Shown here: piece by piece, positions 4,705 through 22,917 of the stretch
Position numbering within the stretch: position 1 is the first letter of the stretch
Layout of the letters: each line of letters begins with the position of its first letter
NCBI GenBank assembly: GCA_038400315.1
Contig: CP151667.1
Coordinates: forward strand, 5,157,174-5,221,173
Origin: Isosphaeraceae bacterium EP7
GTDB lineage: Bacteria; Planctomycetota; Planctomycetia; Isosphaerales; Isosphaeraceae
Length of the DNA: 64,000 nucleotides
Direction: 5' to 3'
Notes under the pieces: generated by a model
The model's database searches: none
Told to the model about the DNA's origin: nothing
The model's input: only the letters and a program-made list of their open reading frames with translations
Translations under genes and position numbers: made by a program

Positions 4705-6576
4705 ATGGCCCCTCCCGTCAGACAGGCCATGTCCTTCCAGATCGCCCACGTCCGACTCGCGGAGATTCGCATGAGGTCGCTCAAGACGCTGCTGCTCTGC
4801 ATCGCTTCCGCCACCGTCTGGCCCACCTATTTCGTGCTCGCGGCTTACATGGCCCGGATCGGCCCATGGCCTCGGGGCATCGCCCGGCCGGCCTCGTACC
4901 TCATCGCCTCCCTGGCGATCGCATTCTGGGTGAGCCAGATCGTTCGATCTCTCTTCCGCCCCGAAGGTTGGGCCGAGGAGACGCTCGGAATTCCGCGGGC
5001 CGTGACACGTCAGGTCCGCGCCGCGGTTCGGGTTCTGATCGTCGGCGGCCTGGCCTGCCTTGTGCCCCGCGGGCTCCTCGAGGGGGGCCTTCTCGCCCCG
5101 TCGGATCGGCCGATCTCGGCCTCGGTCACGGGCCACTTGCTGGGGCTGGCCTACGGCCTGGTCGTCTGGGCGGTCTGCTTCCGCCTTCTCCGGAAGAACT
5201 CGCCGCTCATTGCCTGGATCGACGAGGCCACCGAGAAGCGGGGCTGGGTCGTCCGGCATCGGAGGCAGGCGGCTTGGACCCTTCTGGGCATCGTCGCGAC
5301 GATCGTGCTGCTCGATGCCTCGGGCTATGCCTACACCGCCCGGCGTCTGGCCACGGCAGGCCTCCCCTCGCTGGCGATCATCAGCCTGAGCTGGGCCGGG
5401 CGGAAGCTTGCGGTCTCGGCAATCGAGGAACACTCCTGGCGCTGGCTGTCCACCGGCAAGCTGAAGGGGGTCGTCGATAACGAGAAGTTTCCCGAGGCCC
5501 TATGCAAGCTCGTCCGCCTGGCCATTCCCGCGATCGGCCTGCTCGCCTGCGGATGGGTCTGGGAAGTCGACCTCGCACTGTTCCGGTCGATCGGTGGCAT
5601 GCCGCTCTGGCCGATCGATCAGACAACCGGCCTGACGGTGGGCGACGCAACACAGGCCCTCGTCATGCTCGCCCTGACCGCCCTCGTCTGGAAGCACATT
5701 TCCACGCTGTTCGAGCTGGTCGTCTTCCCCAGGATGTCTGACGACCCCGGCACCCGCTACGCGATCCTCACGCTGGGCCGCTATCTCGCCCTGGCGATGG
5801 GGACGCTGGGAGTGCTCTCGGCGGTCAAGCTCGGCGTCAAGGAGATCGGTGTGGTGCTCGCCGCGCTCGGCGTCGGTCTTGGCTTCGGCTTGCAGGAGAT
5901 TGTCTCGAACTTCGTCAGCGGCATCATCCTGTTGCTTGAGCGGCCGATCCGCGTGGGCGACCTCGTGACCGTGGCCGGCATGACGGGCACCGTGGACCGG
6001 ATCAACATCCGCGCAACCACCATCAATAACGCCGACAATCACAGCATGATCGTGCCCAATCGGGCCTTCATCACCGGCGATCTCGTCAACTGGACGCTCA
6101 AGGACAAGGTGATCCGGGTGTCGATCCCGTTGCGGGTCGCCCAGGGAAGCTGCCCGGATCGCGCGACCGACCTCCTGCTGATGATCGCCCGAGAGGATGC
6201 GGACGTCCTGCGGAATCCACTGCCGATCGCCTTCATGGAGGGTTTCGGCGAGTCATCGATCAACCTGATCTTGCACGTCCATGTGCCCGACCCGAGCCTG
6301 GGCGGACGCGTGAAGCACCGGCTCTGCACCCAGATCCAGAAGCGATTCGAAGCCGCGGGGATCTTGATGCCGCCGCCCACCCGAGAGGTCACTCTCCGCC
6401 AGGCCGAATCGGCAGGCAACGACCTGACCGTGGTGAGCCGGACATCGGCGAAACCCGCGGTCGAATTCCGGGCCGACCCACCGGTCCCCACCCCGACCGC
6501 CCCGCACATGCCGCGGGCCGTCCAGCCCGCCCCGACGGCTCCTATCGAGTCACGAAACCGCTGCGAGGACGAATGA
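4705..6576 (+). CDS. MscS-family mechanosensitive ion channel
   Basis: This 623-residue inner-membrane protein gates in response to membrane tension and protects against osmotic downshock. About ten hydrophobic segments precede the MscS core. The pore-lining helix and beta domain are clear near residues 390-450: GLGFGLQEIVSNFVSGIIL, then ERPIRVGDLVTVAGMTGTV and the NRAFITGDLVNWTLKD segment. The cytoplasmic alpha-beta domain with FGESSINLILHVHV follows, then a Pro-rich tail of about 60 residues. The start at 4705 is the first ATG after the upstream stop (gap of 2 bases, different frame). The open frame itself extends upstream to about 4549, overlapping the end of the coiled-coil gene. Without the upstream gene this protein would lack the sensor region normally fused to it. 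It could be translated by re-initiation or arise from one frameshifted gene. Confidence 0.85.
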   Translation: MAPPVRQAMSFQIAHVRLAEIRMRSLKTLLLCIASATVWPTYFVLAAYMARIGPWPRGIARPASYLIASLAIAFWVSQIVRSLFRPEGWAEETLGIPRAVTRQVRAAVRVLIVGGLACLVPRGLLEGGLLAPSDRPISASVTGHLLGLAYGLVVWAVCFRLLRKNSPLIAWIDEATEKRGWVVRHRRQAAWTLLGIVATIVLLDASGYAYTARRLATAGLPSLAIISLSWAGRKLAVSAIEEHSWRWLSTGKLKGVVDNEKFPEALCKLVRLAIPAIGLLACGWVWEVDLALFRSIGGMPLWPIDQTTGLTVGDATQALVMLALTALVWKHISTLFELVVFPRMSDDPGTRYAILTLGRYLALAMGTLGVLSAVKLGVKEIGVVLAALGVGLGFGLQEIVSNFVSGIILLLERPIRVGDLVTVAGMTGTVDRINIRATTINNADNHSMIVPNRAFITGDLVNWTLKDKVIRVSIPLRVAQGSCPDRATDLLLMIAREDADVLRNPLPIAFMEGFGESSINLILHVHVPDPSLGGRVKHRLCTQIQKRFEAAGILMPPPTREVTLRQAESAGNDLTVVSRTSAKPAVEFRADPPVPTPTAPHMPRAVQPAPTAPIESRNRCEDE

Positions 6577-6612
6577 GAGCCGTGAGGCTGTCATGGATCG
6601 CGAAATCGGAGA

Positions 6613-8214
6613 TCACCGGTCGGTAGTCTCCGGCTTGGAGATCGGTGCGGGTGCGTCGTCCAGATAGAAGACCTCGCTGAGCTTGCCCAGGAGCTTGCCG
6701 GCCGCGGAGGGGGTGACAACTTCGTTCATAGGCAGGCCGTTCAAGAAGAAGGCGAATGCCAGCTTTCGGCCGCCCGCGGTGTCAATGTAGCCGGCAAGCG
6801 CCTTGCTCGTGAGAATCGACTTGCCGTTGAGCGAGTTGCCCACGAAGTAGGTTCCCGTCTTCGCCTTCACGTGGCCAATCGCGGGGCTATCCGACGGAAC
6901 CGCACTGGCGAGGGTGCCTGTTCCGCCCAGGATCGGGAGGGCATCCTCGTAGGCCGGAAAGTCGTCGCGAGCGGCCATCGTGCGGAGCAAGGCAACGGTC
7001 CCCCTGGGCGTCACCATGTCGGCTCGCTCGCCCCCGGCACCGCCGCCGAAGGAGGCCGAGCCGGGAGCGACGCCCAGATGCTGGAGAATCTGGCCTTCGC
7101 GCCTCAGACCCTCGCGGGCCGTGCGCTCGCCGTGATGGGCCGCGATCAGGAGCGGCAGGGTGCTGGCGTGCAGGTTGTGGCTGACTTTGAGAATGACTCG
7201 TACGAATTCCTTGAGCGGCGGTGAAGTGTACTCGGCCACCTTGGGCAAGCCGGCGACCTCCGCCTGGCTGGGCAGGTCCTTCTCCTCGTTCGAACCGAGC
7301 GGCGAGACCGAGACTTCGACGCCGCGGCGGCGCAATGTCTCGATGAAGACGGCGCGGGCAAACGACGCGGGCTGATCGGCTTCATAGATCGCCACGACCG
7401 GGCCGTGACCGGCAGGAACCTTACCTTTGACGACGAACCGTCGAGGGCCGGCGACCTCGATCGAGATCGACGGCTTCGTTCCAGATTCCTCTGTGACGAC
7501 GCGAGACTCGTAGGTCACGTAGGACGTCGGTGGGACGATCGAGACTTCGGCGGCATCGCCCGGCTTGGCACCCGCTTTGACCACGACGTCGATCAGGTTG
7601 TCGTTGATGACGATCGGCGAGACGTTTTCCGGTCCGCTTCCCGAACTCTTCGCCGGGGCGAAGTAGCGATCGTCGACCAGCACGTTGCCTTCGACCTTGG
7701 TGATCCCGGCGGCCTTCACGCCATCGGCCAGCTCGATCAGGCCCGCGAGCGGGTCGGCATCGATCAGCTTGGCGCCCGAGTAGATGTGATCATCGCCGTT
7801 GAACAGGAGCCGGCCATCGGAGCCGGTGCGCCCCCCCATGCTCAGGTCGCCCTTGGCGACGAGGATCAGGTCGCCTTTAAGCGTCCCGTCGACCACGTCG
7901 CCCTTGCGCACGACGGGGGTCTTGAACCGGTAGTCTGGCCCCAGGTCGCTCCAGGCGGCGGCGGTGCTGAAGAGCTTGGTGACCGAGGCCGGCCCGAACA
8001 TCTGGTCGGGGTTGCGGGCGTAAATCGTGGCGCCCGACGAAACGTCGACGACGAGAAGTCCCCAGTGGGCGTCGCGAAAGGACGGAGTTCCGAGGACAGT
8101 CTCGACCCGACTCTCCAGCGATTCTCGCGGTGCCGTCGGGGTCTGGGCGTGGGCGCCCACACCGAGGGCCAGTACCAGGATCGATCCCAGCCGGGTCGCG
8201 GAATGTACCTTCAT
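6613..8214 (-). CDS. dacB: D-alanyl-D-alanine carboxypeptidase/endopeptidase, PBP4 (S13) family
   Basis: This enzyme of 533 residues trims or cleaves peptidoglycan cross-links in the periplasm. The signal peptide is MKVHSATRLGSILVLALG, ending in AHAQ. The three penicilloyl-serine-transferase motifs are present in order: SVTK near residue 76 (serine nucleophile), SHN near residue 345, and KTG near residue 450, with the large S13-type insertion (residues about 100-300, including VEGNVLVDDRYF) between the first two. The start at 8214 is preferred to upstream ATG codons at 8229 and 8232 because GGGAGG lies about 7 bases ahead of it and the signal peptide begins there. It lies downstream of the sdh operon on the same strand, with a strong hairpin between, so it probably has its own promoter. 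Confidence 0.92.
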   Translation of the reverse strand: MKVHSATRLGSILVLALGVGAHAQTPTAPRESLESRVETVLGTPSFRDAHWGLLVVDVSSGATIYARNPDQMFGPASVTKLFSTAAAWSDLGPDYRFKTPVVRKGDVVDGTLKGDLILVAKGDLSMGGRTGSDGRLLFNGDDHIYSGAKLIDADPLAGLIELADGVKAAGITKVEGNVLVDDRYFAPAKSSGSGPENVSPIVINDNLIDVVVKAGAKPGDAAEVSIVPPTSYVTYESRVVTEESGTKPSISIEVAGPRRFVVKGKVPAGHGPVVAIYEADQPASFARAVFIETLRRRGVEVSVSPLGSNEEKDLPSQAEVAGLPKVAEYTSPPLKEFVRVILKVSHNLHASTLPLLIAAHHGERTAREGLRREGQILQHLGVAPGSASFGGGAGGERADMVTPRGTVALLRTMAARDDFPAYEDALPILGGTGTLASAVPSDSPAIGHVKAKTGTYFVGNSLNGKSILTSKALAGYIDTAGGRKLAFAFFLNGLPMNEVVTPSAAGKLLGKLSEVFYLDDAPAPISKPETTDR

Positions 8215-8328
8215 CGGAGCCCTCCCCATCACGGTCGGTCAAATCGTGGAACCGGCGGGCGTCGATCCGCCGATGTCGAAGCCCCGGAGAGATGGGGCAC
8301 TCCGCATCGAACCTTCGGGACGTACGAA

Positions 8329-8365
8329 GCCCGGCGGCCGGATCCGTCTCGTCCGGCTGCCGGGC
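8329..8365 (-). terminator. Strong hairpin downstream of sdhB (terminator-like, no U tract)
   Basis: GCCCGGCGGCCGGA at 8329-8342 pairs with TCCGGCTGCCGGGC at 8352-8365 (14-bp stem with one G-U type pair, 9-base loop). It lies just past the sdhB stop and before dacB. No run of U follows on the minus strand, so it may act with Rho or as a 3' stabilising hairpin rather than as a classical intrinsic terminator. Confidence 0.5.
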
Positions 8366-8386
8366 TATCCATGTGCTGATCGGATG

Positions 8387-9142
8387 TCAGGACTCGAGGA
8401 TATGCAGGGCGTCGTCGGTGTGGACGCTGCCCGTGAGTAACGCCCGCTTCACTTCCTGGATCGCCTGCGTGACCTTGATGTCGCGCGGGCAGGCGCTGGT
8501 GCAATTGAAGACCGTGCGGCAGCGCCAGACGCCCTCGGCATCATTCAGGATGTCGAGTCGTTCGGCGGCCCCGCGGTCGCGGGAGTCGAAGATGAAGCGG
8601 TGAGCATTGACGATGGCGGCGGGGCCGACGTATTTCTGGTCGCCCCAGAACGGCGGGCAGGCGGTGGTGCAGCAGGCGCAGAGGATGCACTTGGTGGTGT
8701 CGTCGAACCGAGCCCGTTCCTCGGGCGTCTGGATGCGCTCCGTGGTGGGCGGCGGGTCGTCATTGACCAGGTAGGGCATCACGGCCTTGTAGTGGTCGAA
8801 GAACGGCTTCATGTCGACGATCAGGTCCTTGATCACCGGCAGGCCGAGGATCGGCTCGACGGTGAGGGTGTCGCCTCGCACGTTCTTCACCAGGATCTTG
8901 CACGCCAGGGCGTTGACGCCATTGATGCGCATGGCATCGGAGCCGCAGACGCCGTGGGCGCACGAGCGTCGCAGGCCGAGGCTATCGTCGTGCAGCCACT
9001 TCACATTCTGGATGACGTCGAGGACCCGGTCGAGCGGGTCGGCCTCGATGTCGTATTCTTCCCAGCGCGGGGGCTGGTCCAGCTCAGGGTCGTACCGCTT
9101 GATCCGGACCTTGAGCGTGCGGGTCGCGGCTGCGATGGACAT
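8387..9142 (-). CDS. sdhB: Succinate dehydrogenase iron-sulfur subunit
   Basis: This 251-residue subunit passes electrons from the flavin of SdhA to the membrane quinone site. Three cluster motifs are visible: the ferredoxin-type [2Fe-2S] site (CAHGVCGSDAMRING, then NALAC, around residues 60-80), the [4Fe-4S] site CILCACCTTAC, and the [3Fe-4S] site CRTVFNCTSACP. In the first site the third ligand position is Asp rather than Cys (CGSD), as known in actinobacterial-type SdhB, so it is expected to be functional. It is the last gene of the sdhC-sdhD-sdhA-sdhB operon, 68 bases after sdhA. Confidence 0.96.
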   Translation of the reverse strand: MSIAAATRTLKVRIKRYDPELDQPPRWEEYDIEADPLDRVLDVIQNVKWLHDDSLGLRRSCAHGVCGSDAMRINGVNALACKILVKNVRGDTLTVEPILGLPVIKDLIVDMKPFFDHYKAVMPYLVNDDPPPTTERIQTPEERARFDDTTKCILCACCTTACPPFWGDQKYVGPAAIVNAHRFIFDSRDRGAAERLDILNDAEGVWRCRTVFNCTSACPRDIKVTQAIQEVKRALLTGSVHTDDALHILES

Positions 9143-12817: not shown

Positions 12818-13028
12818 GCCGTCGCTCCCAACAAGTCATGAGCCGTCTCATGACGAGTTCGATCGGATTTCCGGTCAATGCATCCATCGTATTTCACGGA
12901 CACCCGCCGGACAAGTCAGATCGTTGAAAAAGGAAGAAAGTTTCGGGCCATTCCCGCAACGGCAACGTAGGTTGGAAGAATGTCCCGGATCCATCCCGGG
13001 CAAGCAAGAGAATCTTATTTGAGCGAGG

Positions 13029-13487
13029 ACGTGGTGGGCCGGTAAGCCGGATTCTGTCGGGAGGATTTGAGCCCTCCCGGATGACCATTTCTCTAGGACA
13101 CCGGTTGCCCGGCGCCTCAAGCGACCTACCCGAGAGTCATAACGGGCCGGGCCAACCCGCGGACCCCGTTGCATCTCTCGATACCCCGAGATCACTGCTC
13201 TCCTATTTGGTCTTGCTCCCGATGGGGTTTACCTAGCCAGGCCGGTCACCCGATCTGCTGGTGAGCTCTTACCTCACCGTTTCACCCTTACCTCGGCGAC
13301 TGCCCCGAGAGGCGTTTGCCGAGGCGGTTTATTTTCTGTGGCACTGTCCCTACCCGAAAACGGGCGGTGGGCGTTACCCACCATCGCGCCCTGCGGAGTC
13401 CGGACTTTCCTCCCCGGCATGCCCGAGTTAACTGGCCTAGAAGACCAATCTACCCGCGCCGAGGCGGTCATCAGGCCCACCACGACC
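13029..13487 (-). ncRNA. rnpB: RNase P RNA (bacterial class A)
   Basis: This is the catalytic RNA that removes the 5' leader of pre-tRNAs. Reading the minus strand, the universally conserved 5' core GAGGAAAGTCCGGACTCC appears near 13400-13417, followed by GGGTAACGCCCACC, GGTGAAACGGTGAGGTAAGAG, AGGAGAGCAGTGA-like core pieces, and the conserved 3' segment ACAGAATCCGGCTTACCGG near 13040-13060. The terminal P1 helix is explicit: CGTGGTGGGCC at the 5' end (13484-13474) pairs with GGCCCACCACG at the 3' end (13040-13030). The ends are set by this pairing and are accurate to a few bases. Confidence 0.96.
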
Positions 13488-17646: not shown

Positions 17647-18360
17647 CGGCTCCCTCCGCCTGCGGGATTTCCGCCGACCTTGTTGATGGATGGTTTCGAC
17701 CTTCTCGGGCTCGGCGTCAGGGGATTCGCTGGAACTCCTCAAAGAGCCAGCACAATCAAGAGTCTCGCCCCCCAGTTGTAGTTTATTGGGTCGTCATCCG
17801 AAGGAAAGCCTCGCTAGAAAGAGCTAATCGGCTCAAAGCCTCTCGCATTACCTTTCGGCGTTGCTGGCGGTACTCAGGCGAATTTGGTGTTAAATGGCGG
17901 GTTCGAGGCGACCAGCAACGGTGCCGGGCTTCAATTCGATGCCACACCGTCGGCCGATTCCTGAACGCCGAGAGAACGTCCTTTACGCTTCGGGGAACGC
18001 GAACACAACGGGTGTCACGGGCCTATGTGGGAGGCTTCAACTGGTTCTGGGCATGCGTGGATCGACGGCTTAATCGGGACCCACGACCCAACTGGCTGAC
18101 GACCTACGGAATCAAGGTAAAAGAGCTGGATTCATTGGCCGGGTACCTGGCCTATCGACTGCTCGCGACGACTCTGCCGCTCGTCGTGTCTCGGGGAGAA
18201 TTTCAGCGGCCAGTGCCGGATCGCCACTTGTCCTGAGGATCGGAGGCCCTTCGGCCGGTCGACCTGCACAACAGGCTTCATCGGGCTGGAGGATCTCGAC
18301 CGGGCCGCTTGACCTTGGTGGGCCGTGGTTGTAGAGTTGGGGCATCATAATTCGGTGCGC
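17647..18360. other. Long intergenic region upstream of putA and the SAM riboswitch
   Basis: About 700 bases between the divergent putA start and the riboswitch. An open frame at about 17604-18236 (plus) overlaps the putA start and has no RBS, no family resemblance and unusual composition, so I do not call it a gene. The putA promoter and the promoter of the riboswitch operon should both lie here, but I could not single out convincing boxes. Confidence 0.5.
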
Positions 18361-18524
18361 TTCTTATCCAGAGTGGCTGAGGGACGGGCCCTGCGACGCC
18401 ACAGCAACCGGTCCACCATCGCGGTGGATGCTGGTGCTAACTCCTGCCCTGTGCTCCTTGATGGACCTGCTGCGATCTTCGGATCGCCTGCGGGTGTCGG
18501 GTGTGCCGATGGGACAGATAAGAA
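18361..18524 (+). promoter_or_regulatory. SAM-I (S-box) riboswitch
   Basis: The element has the SAM-I layout. An 8-bp P1 helix is formed by TTCTTATC (18361-18368) and GATAAGAA (18517-18524). The conserved core GAGGGACGGGCCCTGCGA is followed by a GCCACAGCAACCGG segment, the P3 hairpin CCACCATCGCGGTGG, and GTGCTAACTCCTGCC, matching the characteristic AAC..GGTGCTAA-TCC part of the family. It binds S-adenosylmethionine and normally shuts off sulfur amino-acid genes when SAM is plentiful. The next gene on the strand is the threonine-synthase-like gene, whose likely start is 285 bases downstream. No clear U-rich terminator was seen, so control may be translational or Rho-linked. Confidence 0.93.
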
Positions 18525-18808
18525 CGCCTGAGCTGTGCGGCATTCCTTGCCGTCCGGCGAGGGCACTCTCTTAGACTGCCTCCGGCCCCCCCGCATTCAT
18601 CGGGATTCGCCGGGTACGGCCTGCCCTTCCCACGGACATCAACCTCGCGTTGGTGCGGTCGATCCGCCTTAGGGTCGACCTCCGTGGGCTCGCGTTTGCT
18701 GGATGAGAGCGCCCGGGGATGAGTTTCCGCGGCACGTCAGCGATGACGGTCCGCGGGAGTCGTCCTCGAGACGGATTCGCCATCCTCTGCAAGCGTGGAG
18801 AATATCCG
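18525..18808 (+). other. Leader between SAM riboswitch and thrC-like gene (expression platform)
   Basis: These 284 bases contain several possible stems, for example CCCACGGA with TCCGTGGG and GTCGA with TCGAC around 18630-18695, but no stem followed by a T run. The RBS of the next gene (GGAG near 18798) is close to its GTG start. The leader is long for a SAM-I element; the frame is open through its last 90 bases but has no family resemblance there. Confidence 0.45.
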
Positions 18809-20080
18809 GTGCAAGAAGAATTCGCCCTCGGCTTGAAGTGTCGCCTCTGCGGCAAGATGTACCCCAAGCAGGCCCTGAACTTCTGCACCGACGACTTCGG
18901 TCCGCTCGAAGTGGTCTATGACTACGACGCCGTCGGCCGGTCGATGACCCGCGAGTCCATCGCCTCGCGGCCCCATACGATGTGGCGCTATCGGGAACTG
19001 CTGCCCATCGACGGCGAGCCGACCGTGGGCAAGCACGTCGGCGGCACCCCGCTGATCAAGGCCGATCGGCTGGCCAAGGCGCTGGGGGTGGCCGAGCTCT
19101 ACATCAAGAATGATGCGGTGAATCACCCGTCCCTGTCGTTCAAGGATCGCGTCGTCGCCGTGGCGCTCTCCAAGGCGGTCGAGCTGGGGTTCAAGACCGT
19201 CGGCTGCGCGTCCACCGGAAACCTGGCCGGCAGCGTTGCGGCCAATGCCGCGGCGGCGGGCCTGGAAGCGTATATCTTGATCCCGCACGACCTCGAGGCC
19301 GGCAAGGTGCTGGGGGCGACGGTCTACGGCTCCAAGGTCATCGCGATCCGGGGGAATTACGACCACGTCAACCGGCTCTGCTCGCAGATCGCCTTCCGGT
19401 ACGGCTGGGGCTTCGTCAACGTGAACCTCAGGCCGTTCTACGCCGAGGGATCGAAGACGATGGGCTTCGAGATCGCCGAGGACCTGGGCTGGCGGACGCC
19501 GGACCACGTCGTGGCGCCGATGGCCGGCGGCAGCCTGATCGGCAAGATCCACAAGTCGTTCAAGGAATTCGAGCGGCTCGGATTCGTCGGGCCTGTGACC
19601 ACGAAGATGTTCGGGGCGCAGGCGACCGGGTGCAACCCGATCACCAATACGGTAAAGACCGAGGCCCTGAAAGTTCGGCCAGTGAAGAACCCGAACACGA
19701 TTGCCAAGAGCCTGGCCATCGGCGACCCGGCCGACGGCTATTTCGCCTCTCGCCTGATGCACGAAACGGGCGGATGGGGCGAAGACGTCGATGATGACCT
19801 GATCATCGAGGGGATGAAGCTGCTGGCGGAGACCGAAGGGGTCTTCACCGAGACCGCCGGCGGTGTGACCGTGGCCGTCCTGCGCAAGCTGATCGAGCAA
19901 GGGCGGATCGACCGCGATGGCTCGACGGTGATCTGCATCACCGGCAACGGCCTGAAGACGCAGGAAGCCCTCAAGGGCAAGATCGACGAGCCGGTCGTGA
20001 TCCGGCCGACCATGGATGACTTCGAAGCCCTGGTTGGCGCCGCCGTCTGCGAGACGGCCCTGCTCGGCGCCGGGGCCTGA
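18809..20080 (+). CDS. thrC: Threonine synthase-like PLP-dependent enzyme
   Basis: This 423-residue fold-type II PLP enzyme is of the threonine synthase class, which converts O-phosphohomoserine to threonine. It opens with a zinc-ribbon-like piece (LKCRLCGKMYPKQALNFC, then GPLEVVYDYD). The PLP lysine is in HPSLSFKDRVV, the phosphate-cradle region is GCASTGNLAGSVAANAA, and MAGGSLIGKI and TETAGGVTVAVL complete the active site. The GTG at 18809 is chosen because GGAG lies 8 bases upstream and family similarity starts there; the frame is open to 18719. It is the first gene after a SAM riboswitch and is followed by a sulfur carrier, its activating enzyme and a cysteine desulfurase. An alternative role is a sulfhydrylase making homocysteine from O-phosphohomoserine. 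Confidence 0.85.
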   Translation: MQEEFALGLKCRLCGKMYPKQALNFCTDDFGPLEVVYDYDAVGRSMTRESIASRPHTMWRYRELLPIDGEPTVGKHVGGTPLIKADRLAKALGVAELYIKNDAVNHPSLSFKDRVVAVALSKAVELGFKTVGCASTGNLAGSVAANAAAAGLEAYILIPHDLEAGKVLGATVYGSKVIAIRGNYDHVNRLCSQIAFRYGWGFVNVNLRPFYAEGSKTMGFEIAEDLGWRTPDHVVAPMAGGSLIGKIHKSFKEFERLGFVGPVTTKMFGAQATGCNPITNTVKTEALKVRPVKNPNTIAKSLAIGDPADGYFASRLMHETGGWGEDVDDDLIIEGMKLLAETEGVFTETAGGVTVAVLRKLIEQGRIDRDGSTVICITGNGLKTQEALKGKIDEPVVIRPTMDDFEALVGAAVCETALLGAGA

Positions 20081-20187: not shown

Positions 20188-20457
20188 ATGCCCATCGTCC
20201 GCATCCCGACCCCGCTTCGGCCTCACTCGGGCGGCAAAGATAGCGTGGACGCCACCGGCGCCACCGTCGGCGCCGTGCTCGGCCACCTCGGCGAGCAGTT
20301 CCCCGCGATCCGCGAGCGGCTCTTCGATGGCGCCGACCTACGCCGATTCGTCAATGTCTACGTGAACAACGAAGACATCCGCTTCCTGGAAGACCTCGAG
20401 ACGCCCGTCACCGACAAGGACGAGGTCAGCATCATTCCGGCCGTGGCGGGCGGCTGA
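20188..20457 (+). CDS. MoaD/ThiS-family sulfur carrier protein
   Basis: This 89-residue ubiquitin-like protein ends exactly with GG, the group that is adenylated and converted to a thiocarboxylate. Family marks include VGAVLGHLGEQFPAIRERLF, FVNVYVNNEDIRFLEDLETPV and DEVSIIPAVAGG. Because nothing follows the diglycine, no protease is needed to expose it. The start ATG 20188 has AGGA about 11 bases upstream; the longer frame from 20092 has no family resemblance. It lies between the threonine-synthase-like gene and the E1-like gene in one operon. The resemblance to CysO and HcyS-type carriers favours amino-acid sulfur transfer over molybdopterin synthesis, because no moaE-like gene is present here. 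Confidence 0.9.
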   Translation: MPIVRIPTPLRPHSGGKDSVDATGATVGAVLGHLGEQFPAIRERLFDGADLRRFVNVYVNNEDIRFLEDLETPVTDKDEVSIIPAVAGG

Positions 20458-20525: not shown

Positions 20526-21569
20526 ATGGCGACTGAAGCGGGATCGTTGGATCGATACAGCCGGCAGGTCCGCTTCCCGGCGCTTGGCGAAGCGGGCCAG
20601 CGCAAGTTGATGGCCTCGCGGGTCACCATCTGCGGATGCGGGGCGTTAGGGACGGTGCTCGCCAATCATCTGGTTCGCGCCGGGGTTGGGTTCGTCCGGA
20701 TCATCGACCGCGACTTTATCGAGCTGCACAATCTCCAGCGGCAGATCCTGTTCGATGAGGACGACGTCGCCGCCAACCTCCCCAAGTCCGAGGCCGCCGC
20801 CCGGAAGCTTCGCGCGATCAACAGCGCCGTGACGATCGAGGCGGTGGTCACCGACATCGATCACACGAACATCCTCGACCTCGTCTCCGACGCCGACCTG
20901 ATCCTGGACGGGACCGACAACTTCGAGACCCGTTACCTCATCAACGACGCCGCAGTGAAGCTGAATAAGCCCTGGATCTTCGGCGGTGTGATCGGCAGCG
21001 AAGGGCAGTCGATGACGATCCGGCCGGGTATCACTCCTTGCCTACGCTGTTTGATCGAGGACAACCCGCCGCCGGGCATGACCCCCACCTGCGAGACCGC
21101 CGGTGTGCTGGGCCCCGCTGTGGCCGTGATCGCCTCGTTCGAGGCGGTCGAGGCGATCAAGATCCTCTCGGGGGCCTATGATGCGCTCAATACCGAGCTG
21201 ATCATGGTTGACCTCTGGGACTGGAATTTCCGCCGCCTGAAAGTCGCCGGCCTGCTGGGCAAGGTCGACTGTCCGTGTTGTCAGCGTCGGAACTTCGAAT
21301 GGCTCGACGGTGCCCTCGGATCGCATACCACGACGCTCTGCGGGCGCAATGCCGTGCAGGTCGCGACGCGGCGCACCGACCTGATCAACTTCTCCGAGAT
21401 GGCAGGACGACTGACCCACCTAGGGGACGTCCGGCACAACGCTTTCATGATGAAATTCCAGGCCGAAGGGCACGAATTCACCGTCTTTCCGGACGGCCGG
21501 GCCATCATCAAGGGGACGAACGACGTCTCCAAGGCCCGATCGCTTTACGCCCAGTTCGTCGGCAGTTGA
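20526..21569 (+). CDS. ThiF/MoeB/HesA-family sulfur carrier adenylyltransferase
   Basis: This 347-residue E1-like enzyme adenylates the C-terminal glycine of the carrier encoded just upstream. The nucleotide-binding loop is CGCGALGTVLANHL, with VRIIDRDFIELHNLQRQILF, the DADLILDGTDNFETRYLIND motif, zinc cysteine pairs CLRC and CPCC, and the conserved cysteine in PTCETAGVLGP. A C-terminal region of about 75 residues (LINFSEMAGRLTHLG to the end) replaces the rhodanese domain found in some relatives. The gap to the carrier gene is 68 bases and to the desulfurase gene 39 bases, so co-transcription is likely. Confidence 0.92.
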   Translation: MATEAGSLDRYSRQVRFPALGEAGQRKLMASRVTICGCGALGTVLANHLVRAGVGFVRIIDRDFIELHNLQRQILFDEDDVAANLPKSEAAARKLRAINSAVTIEAVVTDIDHTNILDLVSDADLILDGTDNFETRYLINDAAVKLNKPWIFGGVIGSEGQSMTIRPGITPCLRCLIEDNPPPGMTPTCETAGVLGPAVAVIASFEAVEAIKILSGAYDALNTELIMVDLWDWNFRRLKVAGLLGKVDCPCCQRRNFEWLDGALGSHTTTLCGRNAVQVATRRTDLINFSEMAGRLTHLGDVRHNAFMMKFQAEGHEFTVFPDGRAIIKGTNDVSKARSLYAQFVGS

Positions 21570-21608: not shown

Positions 21609-22757
21609 ATGATTTATCTCGACAATGCCGCCACCAGCTTTCCCAAGCCCGAGCCCGTCTATCGCGCGCTCGACACCTTCGCTCGCTCCAGCCTGGCGAA
21701 CCCTGGACGCGCCGGGCACAAGATGGCGGTCGGCGCCGAGCGTTCTCTCGACGCCTGTCGGCATGCCCTGAACGTGATGTTTCACGGCGAGAATCCCGAC
21801 CGCTGGATCTTCACGTACAACTGCACCGACGGCCTGAACATGGCCATCAAGGGGACCTTGAAGGCCGGCGATCACGCCATCACGTCGGATCTGGAACATA
21901 ACTCCGTGAGCCGTCCGCTCCAGGCCCTGGAACGTGCCGGCCTCATCACACTGACCCGCCTGACGTCGAGCGGCGGCTATCTCGACCCGGACGAGGTCCG
22001 CAAGGCCTTCACGCCTTCAACCCGACTGGTGGCGCTGACGCACGCCTCCAACGTGCTGGGAACCTTGCAGCCGATCGCCGAGATCGGCGCCATCGTCCGC
22101 GAGGCGGGGGCCCTCTTCCTTGTCGACGCGGCCCAGTCCGCCGGCATCGTGCCGATTGACCTCAAGGCGACCGCTATCGACCTGCTCGCCTTCCCGGGTC
22201 ACAAGGCCCTCTACGGCCCGACCGGCACGGGTGCTTTGTATGTTGGCCCGCGCACTCGCCTGCGCCCCTGGCGTGAAGGCGGCACGGGCGGAGACTCGGC
22301 CAGTGAGACGCAGCCCGAGCAATTCCCGTTCTTCCTCGAAGGGGGGACGCCCAACGTGCTCGGCGTCGCGGGCCTGGCCGCGGGGATCGCCTGGGTCAGC
22401 GAGCAAGGTCAGGAAAACCTCAGGCGGCATGAGGTCGAGCTGCTCACGCGCGTCGTCGACTGGGCCGAGGGGACCGAGGGCTGGAAGGTGGCCGGCACGT
22501 GGGACCCCGCCCGTCACGTCGGCGCCCTCTCGCTGATCGGCCCCGAAGAACTGCCGCCGCAGGACATCGGGGCGATCCTGGACTCCAGCTTCGACATCGC
22601 CATCCGCCCCGGCCTGCATTGCTCGCCGTACGTGCACCGCAACCTGGGGACCTTCCCCGATGGGACGATCCGGGTCAGCCCCGGTCCGTTCAGCACAGTC
22701 GCCGACATTGACGCCTTTGTCGGTGCCCTCTCCGAGATTACGGCGGGGGTGCTCTGA
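21609..22757 (+). CDS. Cysteine desulfurase-family protein (class V aminotransferase fold)
   Basis: This 382-residue PLP enzyme resembles SufS/CsdA-type desulfurases and the TIGR01977-like group. It takes sulfur from cysteine as a persulfide and leaves alanine. The opening MIYLDNAATSFPKP, SDLEHNSVSRP, LFLVDAAQSAGIVPIDL, the PLP lysine in FPGHKALYGPTGTG, GGTPNVLGVAGLAAG and the persulfide cysteine in RPGLHCSPYVHR are all present. It is the last protein gene of the SAM-controlled operon and would supply sulfur to the adenylated carrier. tRNA-Cys follows 75 bases downstream, before the first terminator seen. Confidence 0.93.
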   Translation: MIYLDNAATSFPKPEPVYRALDTFARSSLANPGRAGHKMAVGAERSLDACRHALNVMFHGENPDRWIFTYNCTDGLNMAIKGTLKAGDHAITSDLEHNSVSRPLQALERAGLITLTRLTSSGGYLDPDEVRKAFTPSTRLVALTHASNVLGTLQPIAEIGAIVREAGALFLVDAAQSAGIVPIDLKATAIDLLAFPGHKALYGPTGTGALYVGPRTRLRPWREGGTGGDSASETQPEQFPFFLEGGTPNVLGVAGLAAGIAWVSEQGQENLRRHEVELLTRVVDWAEGTEGWKVAGTWDPARHVGALSLIGPEELPPQDIGAILDSSFDIAIRPGLHCSPYVHRNLGTFPDGTIRVSPGPFSTVADIDAFVGALSEITAGVL

Positions 22758-22832: not shown

Positions 22833-22903
<71 letters not shown>

Positions 22904-22917
22904 CTGATCAACATTGA

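Follow-up and report, generated by a model that had tools for sequence, protein, structure and literature searches.

In Mycobacterium tuberculosis, the CysM/CysO/Mec+ system makes cysteine with a fold-type II PLP enzyme that uses an O-phosphorylated substrate and the thiocarboxylate of a carrier protein. A carrier-protein thiocarboxylate reportedly also supplies the sulfur of homocysteine in Wolinella succinogenes, as Krishnamoorthy and Begley are said to have described in 2011, and the enzyme of that pathway is said to be an O-acetylhomoserine sulfhydrylase of another PLP fold. For the MetM/MetO system that Hasebe and colleagues described in 2024, thiocarboxylated MetO is reportedly the sulfur donor. 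Passages of PMC12172450 credit Hasebe and colleagues (Appl Environ Microbiol 90:e01247-24) with identifying MetM of Streptomyces as a homocysteine synthase. According to the same passages, MetM converts O-phosphohomoserine to homocysteine, and the S. albulus gene has an upstream SAM riboswitch which is reported to be absent in Microcystis (PMC12172450). Next to thrC of Microcystis lies a gene of a sulfur-carrier family that is said there to resemble metO; Microcystis ThrC, 51.6% identical to MetM, behaved chiefly as a threonine synthase, with deaminase activity, and did not raise methionine (PMC12172450). As far as those passages go, identity at this level therefore does not fix the reaction.

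Operons combining ThiS/MoaD, E1, JAB and cysteine synthase genes have been described, and in the portion of the paper at hand the lone mention of "threonine" does not concern threonine synthase (PMC1779556). In Bacillota, SAM riboswitches lie on hom1 and T-boxes on thrC, according to part of PMC12452182. Our full-text literature search for SAM riboswitch, Planctomycetes and methionine biosynthesis found no paper.

We analysed a 64,000-nucleotide stretch of DNA from Isosphaeraceae bacterium EP7, called the window here. We put the probability that this window holds a methionine operon of the MetM/MetO type under the control of a SAM-I riboswitch at about 0.84. The system is probably a further member of the one published in 2024, with its own E1 and cysteine desulfurase. 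Like S. albulus MetM/MetO, as portrayed in the passages of PMC12172450, the locus has a thrC-like enzyme, an upstream SAM riboswitch and a sulfur-carrier-type metO; unlike it, the locus adds the E1 and the desulfurase and belongs to another phylum. This likeness was gauged through an actinomycete stand-in, the Nonomuraea protein and the carrier encoded beside its gene, to which the window proteins are 51% (MetM) and 52% (MetO) identical. The M. tuberculosis cluster includes a JAB protease whereas the window operon has none, the JAB gene of this genome adjoining cysK. With W. succinogenes the proposed window route would share carrier-thiocarboxylate sulfur, and the enzyme fold reportedly differs. 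The features of the locus are as follows.

18309..18337, + strand: sigma-70-like promoter match TTGACC-17-TAGAGT (9/12 consensus bases, weak evidence)
18361..18524, + strand: SAM-I (S-box) riboswitch aptamer with an extended P4 arm (RF00162, P1 pairing, core blocks)
18361..18368, + strand: P1 5' strand TTCTTATC (covariance match, pairing)
18445..18516, + strand: extended P4 arm, outside the Rfam match (predicted fold)
18517..18524, + strand: P1 3' strand GATAAGAA (predicted fold, pairing)
18525..18808, + strand: leader from aptamer to metM, without intrinsic terminator or above-chance anti-P1 element
18797..18800, + strand: ribosome-binding-site-like GGAG, 8 nt 5' of the GTG start (by eye; start position in relatives)
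18809..20080, + strand: metM-like PLP enzyme, proposed O-phosphohomoserine-dependent homocysteine synthase (PF00291, TIGR00260; clade, residues, fold)
20188..20457, + strand: metO-like ThiS/MoaD-family sulfur carrier, 89 aa, C-terminus PAVAGG (PF02597, 66 bits)
20526..21569, + strand: ThiF/MoeB-like adenylyltransferase (E1), presumed MetO activator (PF00899, 250 bits)
21609..22757, + strand: cysteine desulfurase family protein, presumed sulfur source (PF00266; TIGR01977, 378.4 bits, cut-off 377)

Behind SAM-I, on the same strand, the gene order is thus metM-like, carrier ending in GG, E1-like and cysteine desulfurase, and the four genes probably form one transcript. The E1-like protein scored 357 bits with PRK12475, under that model's cut-off of 510. 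The carrier, E1 and desulfurase genes had been absent from the first-pass annotation's account of this finding. A tRNA-Cys (GCA) gene lies just past the desulfurase gene at 22833-22904, and no tRNA was reported at the closest relative locus, L127. Elsewhere in the window, a class A RNase P RNA was seen at 13027-13483 (-), with 457 bases against 367 model positions.

The SAM-I aptamer and its leader

The first-pass annotation had placed a SAM-I element at 18361-18524 from core sequences that fit SAM-I and a perfect 8-bp P1, and had proposed a covariance-model search. That search matched RF00162 at 18361-18466 (+) with 50.9 bits, where 44.4 is the gathering score (E 9.5e-9 for 64 kb x 4227 families). 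The match covered the full model span 1-108 and was the sole Rfam match at E up to 1 in 18200-18850. It ends at 18466 with a gapped P1 3' strand because of the long P4 arm. In fact, 18361-18368 pairs 8/8 with 18517-18524, so that the extent first proposed is better than that of Rfam. The core blocks were located at 18371 (GAGTGGCTGAGGG), 18386 (GGGCCC), 18404 (GCAACC) and 18433 (GGTGCTA). The predicted fold of 18357-18530 has an energy of -76.5 kcal/mol (z -2.3), and a fold as good was obtained in 2 of 200 shuffles. The P1 scan maximised pairing, and at some other loci the 3' strands it gave are doubtful. A GAT pattern matched the window at 18427, away from P1, and was left unused. One sigma-70-like promoter match was found in 17750-18850, against a shuffle mean of 0.2.

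A functionless look-alike of SAM-I, whether degenerate or arisen by chance, would fit a margin over the gathering score of just 6.5 bits and a leader in which no expression platform was recognised. Against such a look-alike, the shortfall in score is accounted for by the length of the P4 arm, all 8 positions of P1 pair, and the two closest relatives (loci L127 and L128) carry SAM-I in the same place with 69.9 and 72.0 bits. We rejected it on the score over the gathering value and on this shared position, and consider its chance very small. By its sequence and predicted pairing, the element is confirmed as a genuine SAM-I riboswitch, which presumably binds SAM. It is the one SAM-I found in the window genome (7.2 Mb, 99.89% complete), where 150 of 585 first-look candidates were scored.

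The likely metM start is GTG at 18809, 284 bases past the aptamer, chosen by eye with the starts of relatives. We looked for an intrinsic terminator, a start-site switch and an anti-P1 element in the window leader and found none. No terminator was present within 200 bases, and the longest P1 complement was 5 bases, compared with 5.6 in shuffles. Pairing at the start site was the same in folds with P1 forced and with P1 forbidden, both for the window and for L127. The one terminator-like match, at 18342-18358 (shuffle mean 0.8), lies 5' of the aptamer and outside the leader. Of 76 leaders linked to metM, 56 have a hairpin resembling a terminator within 200 bases, vs. 21 of 76 reversed controls, and 30 of the 56 hairpins overlap a stretch of at least 7 bases complementary to P1; the window shows neither feature. 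Rho-dependent or translational control is possible in the window leader. We infer the direction of control in the window to be that high SAM lowers expression.

MetM-type and ThrC-type enzymes

The window PLP enzyme scored 289 bits with the thrC profile TIGR00260 (cut-off 167) and would therefore be labelled threonine synthase by software, as the first-pass annotation had expected. Its AlphaFold model (mean pLDDT 86.4) has a threonine-synthase fold, and by Foldseek the solved threonine synthases are closest to the model. Because this fold is expected under either reading, the model cannot separate MetM from ThrC. Canonical threonine synthases (2ZSJ, 6CGQ and 1UIM) share the fold and the PLP lysine with the window enzyme; they differ in carrying GNT, NPxR and GNAGN, whereas MetM-type enzymes carry GNL, RPxY and AGGS-like motifs, and the window has GNL, RPxY and AGGS. 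The ThrC motifs are not universal, since of 8 thrC-annotated proteins the GNT threonine is present in 4, the NPxR arginine in 7 and GNxGN in 3.

We compared 110 MetM-type sequences, namely the window protein, 28 SAM-I-linked proteins of the phylum, the proteins of 80 loci and a protein from Nonomuraea. All 110 retain the PLP lysine. Leu139, Arg208 and Tyr211 are also found in 110/110 and Ala239 in 109/110, and none of these four residues occurs in any of 8 thrC-type proteins. Leu139 was partly selected in the 80 loci because TGNL is part of one of the two search patterns; Arg208 and Tyr211 lie outside both patterns. The four residues may bear on the reaction. In a tree of 51 proteins, built from 43 of the 110 MetM-type sequences and 8 thrC-type rows, with a long-branch warning among the latter, the window protein and 42 relatives were separated from the thrC-type proteins by a branch with 100/100 support. 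In this tree the Nonomuraea protein, whose own function is putative, stands in for S. albulus MetM.

The window genome has a separate ThrC-type gene (L007), which carries the GNT, NPxR and GNxGN of solved threonine synthases, and a third, divergent thrC-like protein (L009). The presence of L007 bears on whether the window enzyme may be bifunctional, turning O-phosphohomoserine into both threonine and homocysteine depending on how much thiocarboxylate is supplied. A common fold and a presumed common substrate speak for such an enzyme, as does the behaviour of the Microcystis homologue in the passages of PMC12172450. We think it unlikely, since a ThrC-type gene is already present and repression by SAM would cut threonine synthesis too. 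As it overlaps with the MetM/MetO reading, the figures for the alternatives do not sum to one with that of the main reading.

SAM-I, metM and metX in relatives

We surveyed 294 genomes of the phylum Planctomycetota for SAM-I and found 71 matches in 61 genomes, a lower bound with up to 12 first-look candidates scored per genome. Eight of the 71 are under the gathering score, one of them before metM (locus L121 of genome G141, 33.9 bits). In 29 of the 71, counting the window, metM lies downstream, directly in 25 and behind hom and thrB in 4. At L106, which would be the thirtieth, the start of metM is truncated by the end of the contig. Another 19/71 are followed by a hom, thrB, metX, cystathionine-lyase-like or metH stretch, and in the remaining 23/71 (L106 included) none of the six query genes follows or the contig end is reached.

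In the four operons of family f68 (L055, L057, L065 and L112), SAM-I is followed by homoserine dehydrogenase, homoserine kinase and metM. Such a hom-thrB-metM operon is the branch from aspartate semialdehyde to homocysteine under one SAM-I, and these four operons therefore indicate O-phosphohomoserine as the MetM substrate. At L073, hom and thrB follow SAM-I and then the contig ends. SAM-I-scoring elements (45.7-58.8 bits) were also observed before genes unrecognisable as methionine genes, at L110 and L111 of G238 and at L104 and L115 of G056. Both G238 copies precede a 100-aa protein starting MLFSGKQYLYTKPGEK, with E1- and JAB-like frames nearby (by eye), and after L104 there is an uncharacterised protein starting MLHGKFWITPEG.

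We also examined the best 80 of 591 metM loci, which include Planctomycetota, Verrucomicrobiota, Nitrospirota, Nitrospinota, Omnitrophota, Desulfobacterota and other groups. Among these best 80 of 591, SAM-I over the gathering score was found upstream on the same strand in 47, within 404 bases of metM in 45 of the 47; it was not seen at the other 33, 6 of which have less than 600 upstream bases. A MetO-like stretch follows metM in 76 of the same best 80. The actinomycete Nonomuraea gerenzanensis has the order SAM-I (68.7 bits, just upstream), metM, metO. E1 and desulfurase are both downstream in 7 of the best 80 of 591 loci (L127-L130 and L132-L134) and in 6 of the 28 SAM-I-linked loci of the phylum (L087, L100, L101, L102, L113 and L121), several kilobases downstream in some of these 7 and 6 loci. 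MetO is fused to a NIL domain at L113 and L150, a NIL protein is encoded nearby at L087 and L100, and a JAB protease gene lies near metM at L150 and L155. At L150, positions 5269-9026 hold a cluster of metM, metO-NIL, two cysteine-synthase-like frames (by eye), a JAB protease gene and an E1-like frame. There, cysteine and methionine synthesis might both draw on a single carrier.

The distributions of metM and metX were compared in the same 294 genomes, with 560 bits or more taken as a strong MetM match. MetM was found in 48, MetX in 87, both in 2 (G111 and G185) and neither in 161; the MetM and MetX counts are lower bounds with up to 6 first-look candidates scored per genome. G131 lacks metX and carries a metM fragment of 379 bits where a contig ends; it was excluded from the 48. 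MetX was thus present in 2/48 metM genomes vs. 85/246 others (Fisher p 3.7e-6, kinship ignored). MetA was found in 4/294. Within the class of the window genome, all 16 genomes of family f2 have MetX without MetM, the reverse of the window genome, and in the 4 genomes of f3 and f4 neither MetM nor MetX was seen. Because 161 of the 294 have neither gene at the thresholds used, metM and metX do not account for the phylum.

If the window gene encoded an ordinary threonine synthase, the riboswitch would be there for an unusual reason or would be activating. The TIGR00260 score is what such an enzyme would give, threonine synthases are the solved structures nearest to the window enzyme in both sequence and fold, and the Microcystis relative forms threonine in vitro according to passages of PMC12172450. 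This is countered by the separate ThrC-type gene of the genome, the MetM-specific residues, the neighbouring sulfur carrier, E1 and desulfurase genes, and the anticorrelation of metM with metX. We consider an ordinary threonine synthase very improbable and rejected it as the main reading on the MetM-specific residues and on the metX anticorrelation.

A proposed route to methionine

We searched the window genome for other methionine pathway genes. MetA was not found, and for MetX there was only a 27.7-bit match over 65 positions. A homoserine-kinase candidate matched TIGR02535 with 493 bits (cut-off 446), and the usual homoserine kinase model TIGR00191 gave a best score of 40.7 bits in this genome, under its cut-off. 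The function of the TIGR02535 family is called uncertain in part of PMC7311316. The genome encodes three full-length Cys_Met_Meta_PP proteins (L010, L011 and L012). L010 adjoins a cystathionine beta-synthase-like gene (L001) and therefore fits reverse transsulfuration. At C1:3927656-3929051 (L003), cysK is directly followed by a JAB protease gene (Prok-JAB, 65 bits).

In plants, cystathionine gamma-synthase uses O-phosphohomoserine. A gamma-synthase with this substrate might make homocysteine in the window genome as well, the metM operon then making another product, e.g. cysteine. The three Cys_Met_Meta_PP proteins and the JAB protease gene beside cysK would suit such a route. The assignment of L010 to reverse transsulfuration argues against it, as do the position on metM of the one SAM-I found (150/585 candidates scored) and the hom-thrB-metM operons, which tie metM to O-phosphohomoserine. 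We regard this route as improbable.

The first-pass annotation had suspected either a methionine-pathway enzyme or other regulation of the operon. The former is favoured by the phylogeny and residues of the enzyme, by its neighbours, by the failure to find MetA or a convincing MetX, and by conserved SAM-I linkage. With this identity, repression by SAM makes ordinary regulatory sense. In the MetM/MetO reading, the aptamer would fold around SAM when SAM is plentiful, and expression of the operon would fall. When SAM is scarce, the operon would be expressed and the cysteine desulfurase would draw sulfur from cysteine. The E1-like enzyme would adenylate the C-terminal glycine of MetO, leading to the thiocarboxylate, and MetM would swap the phosphate of O-phosphohomoserine for the sulfur held on the carrier. 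The resulting homocysteine would be methylated by methionine synthase. Shut-off by high SAM would then be end-product repression that leaves O-phosphohomoserine to the ThrC-type gene L007. The parts given here to the E1 and the desulfurase in the sulfur relay are presumed ones. Judging from its sequence, the window MetM probably converts O-phosphohomoserine to homocysteine with carrier-bound sulfur; the Microcystis homologue, as it appears in the passages of PMC12172450, is the counter-example.

A wider claim seems to us evenly balanced between right and wrong. For the window genome and those nearest to it, the four genes together may amount to a complete, SAM-gated sulfur relay of the ubiquitin-like kind, in which sulfur passes from cysteine through the desulfurase and the E1-activated MetO thiocarboxylate to MetM. 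Homocysteine would then arise with no need of free sulfide or homoserine acylation, and the relay would be the sole de novo methionine route. In many phyla, MetM-type genes, often SAM-I-switched, may also be systematically annotated as threonine synthase.

The MetM reading dissolves the apparent paradox of a SAM switch before a threonine synthase. The likely misannotation is far-reaching, with a strong MetM-type gene in at least 48 of 294 genomes of the phylum. SAM-I linkage, where found, aids in telling MetM from ThrC. MetM would provide a homocysteine route for genomes without MetX or MetA, which could otherwise be called methionine auxotrophs.
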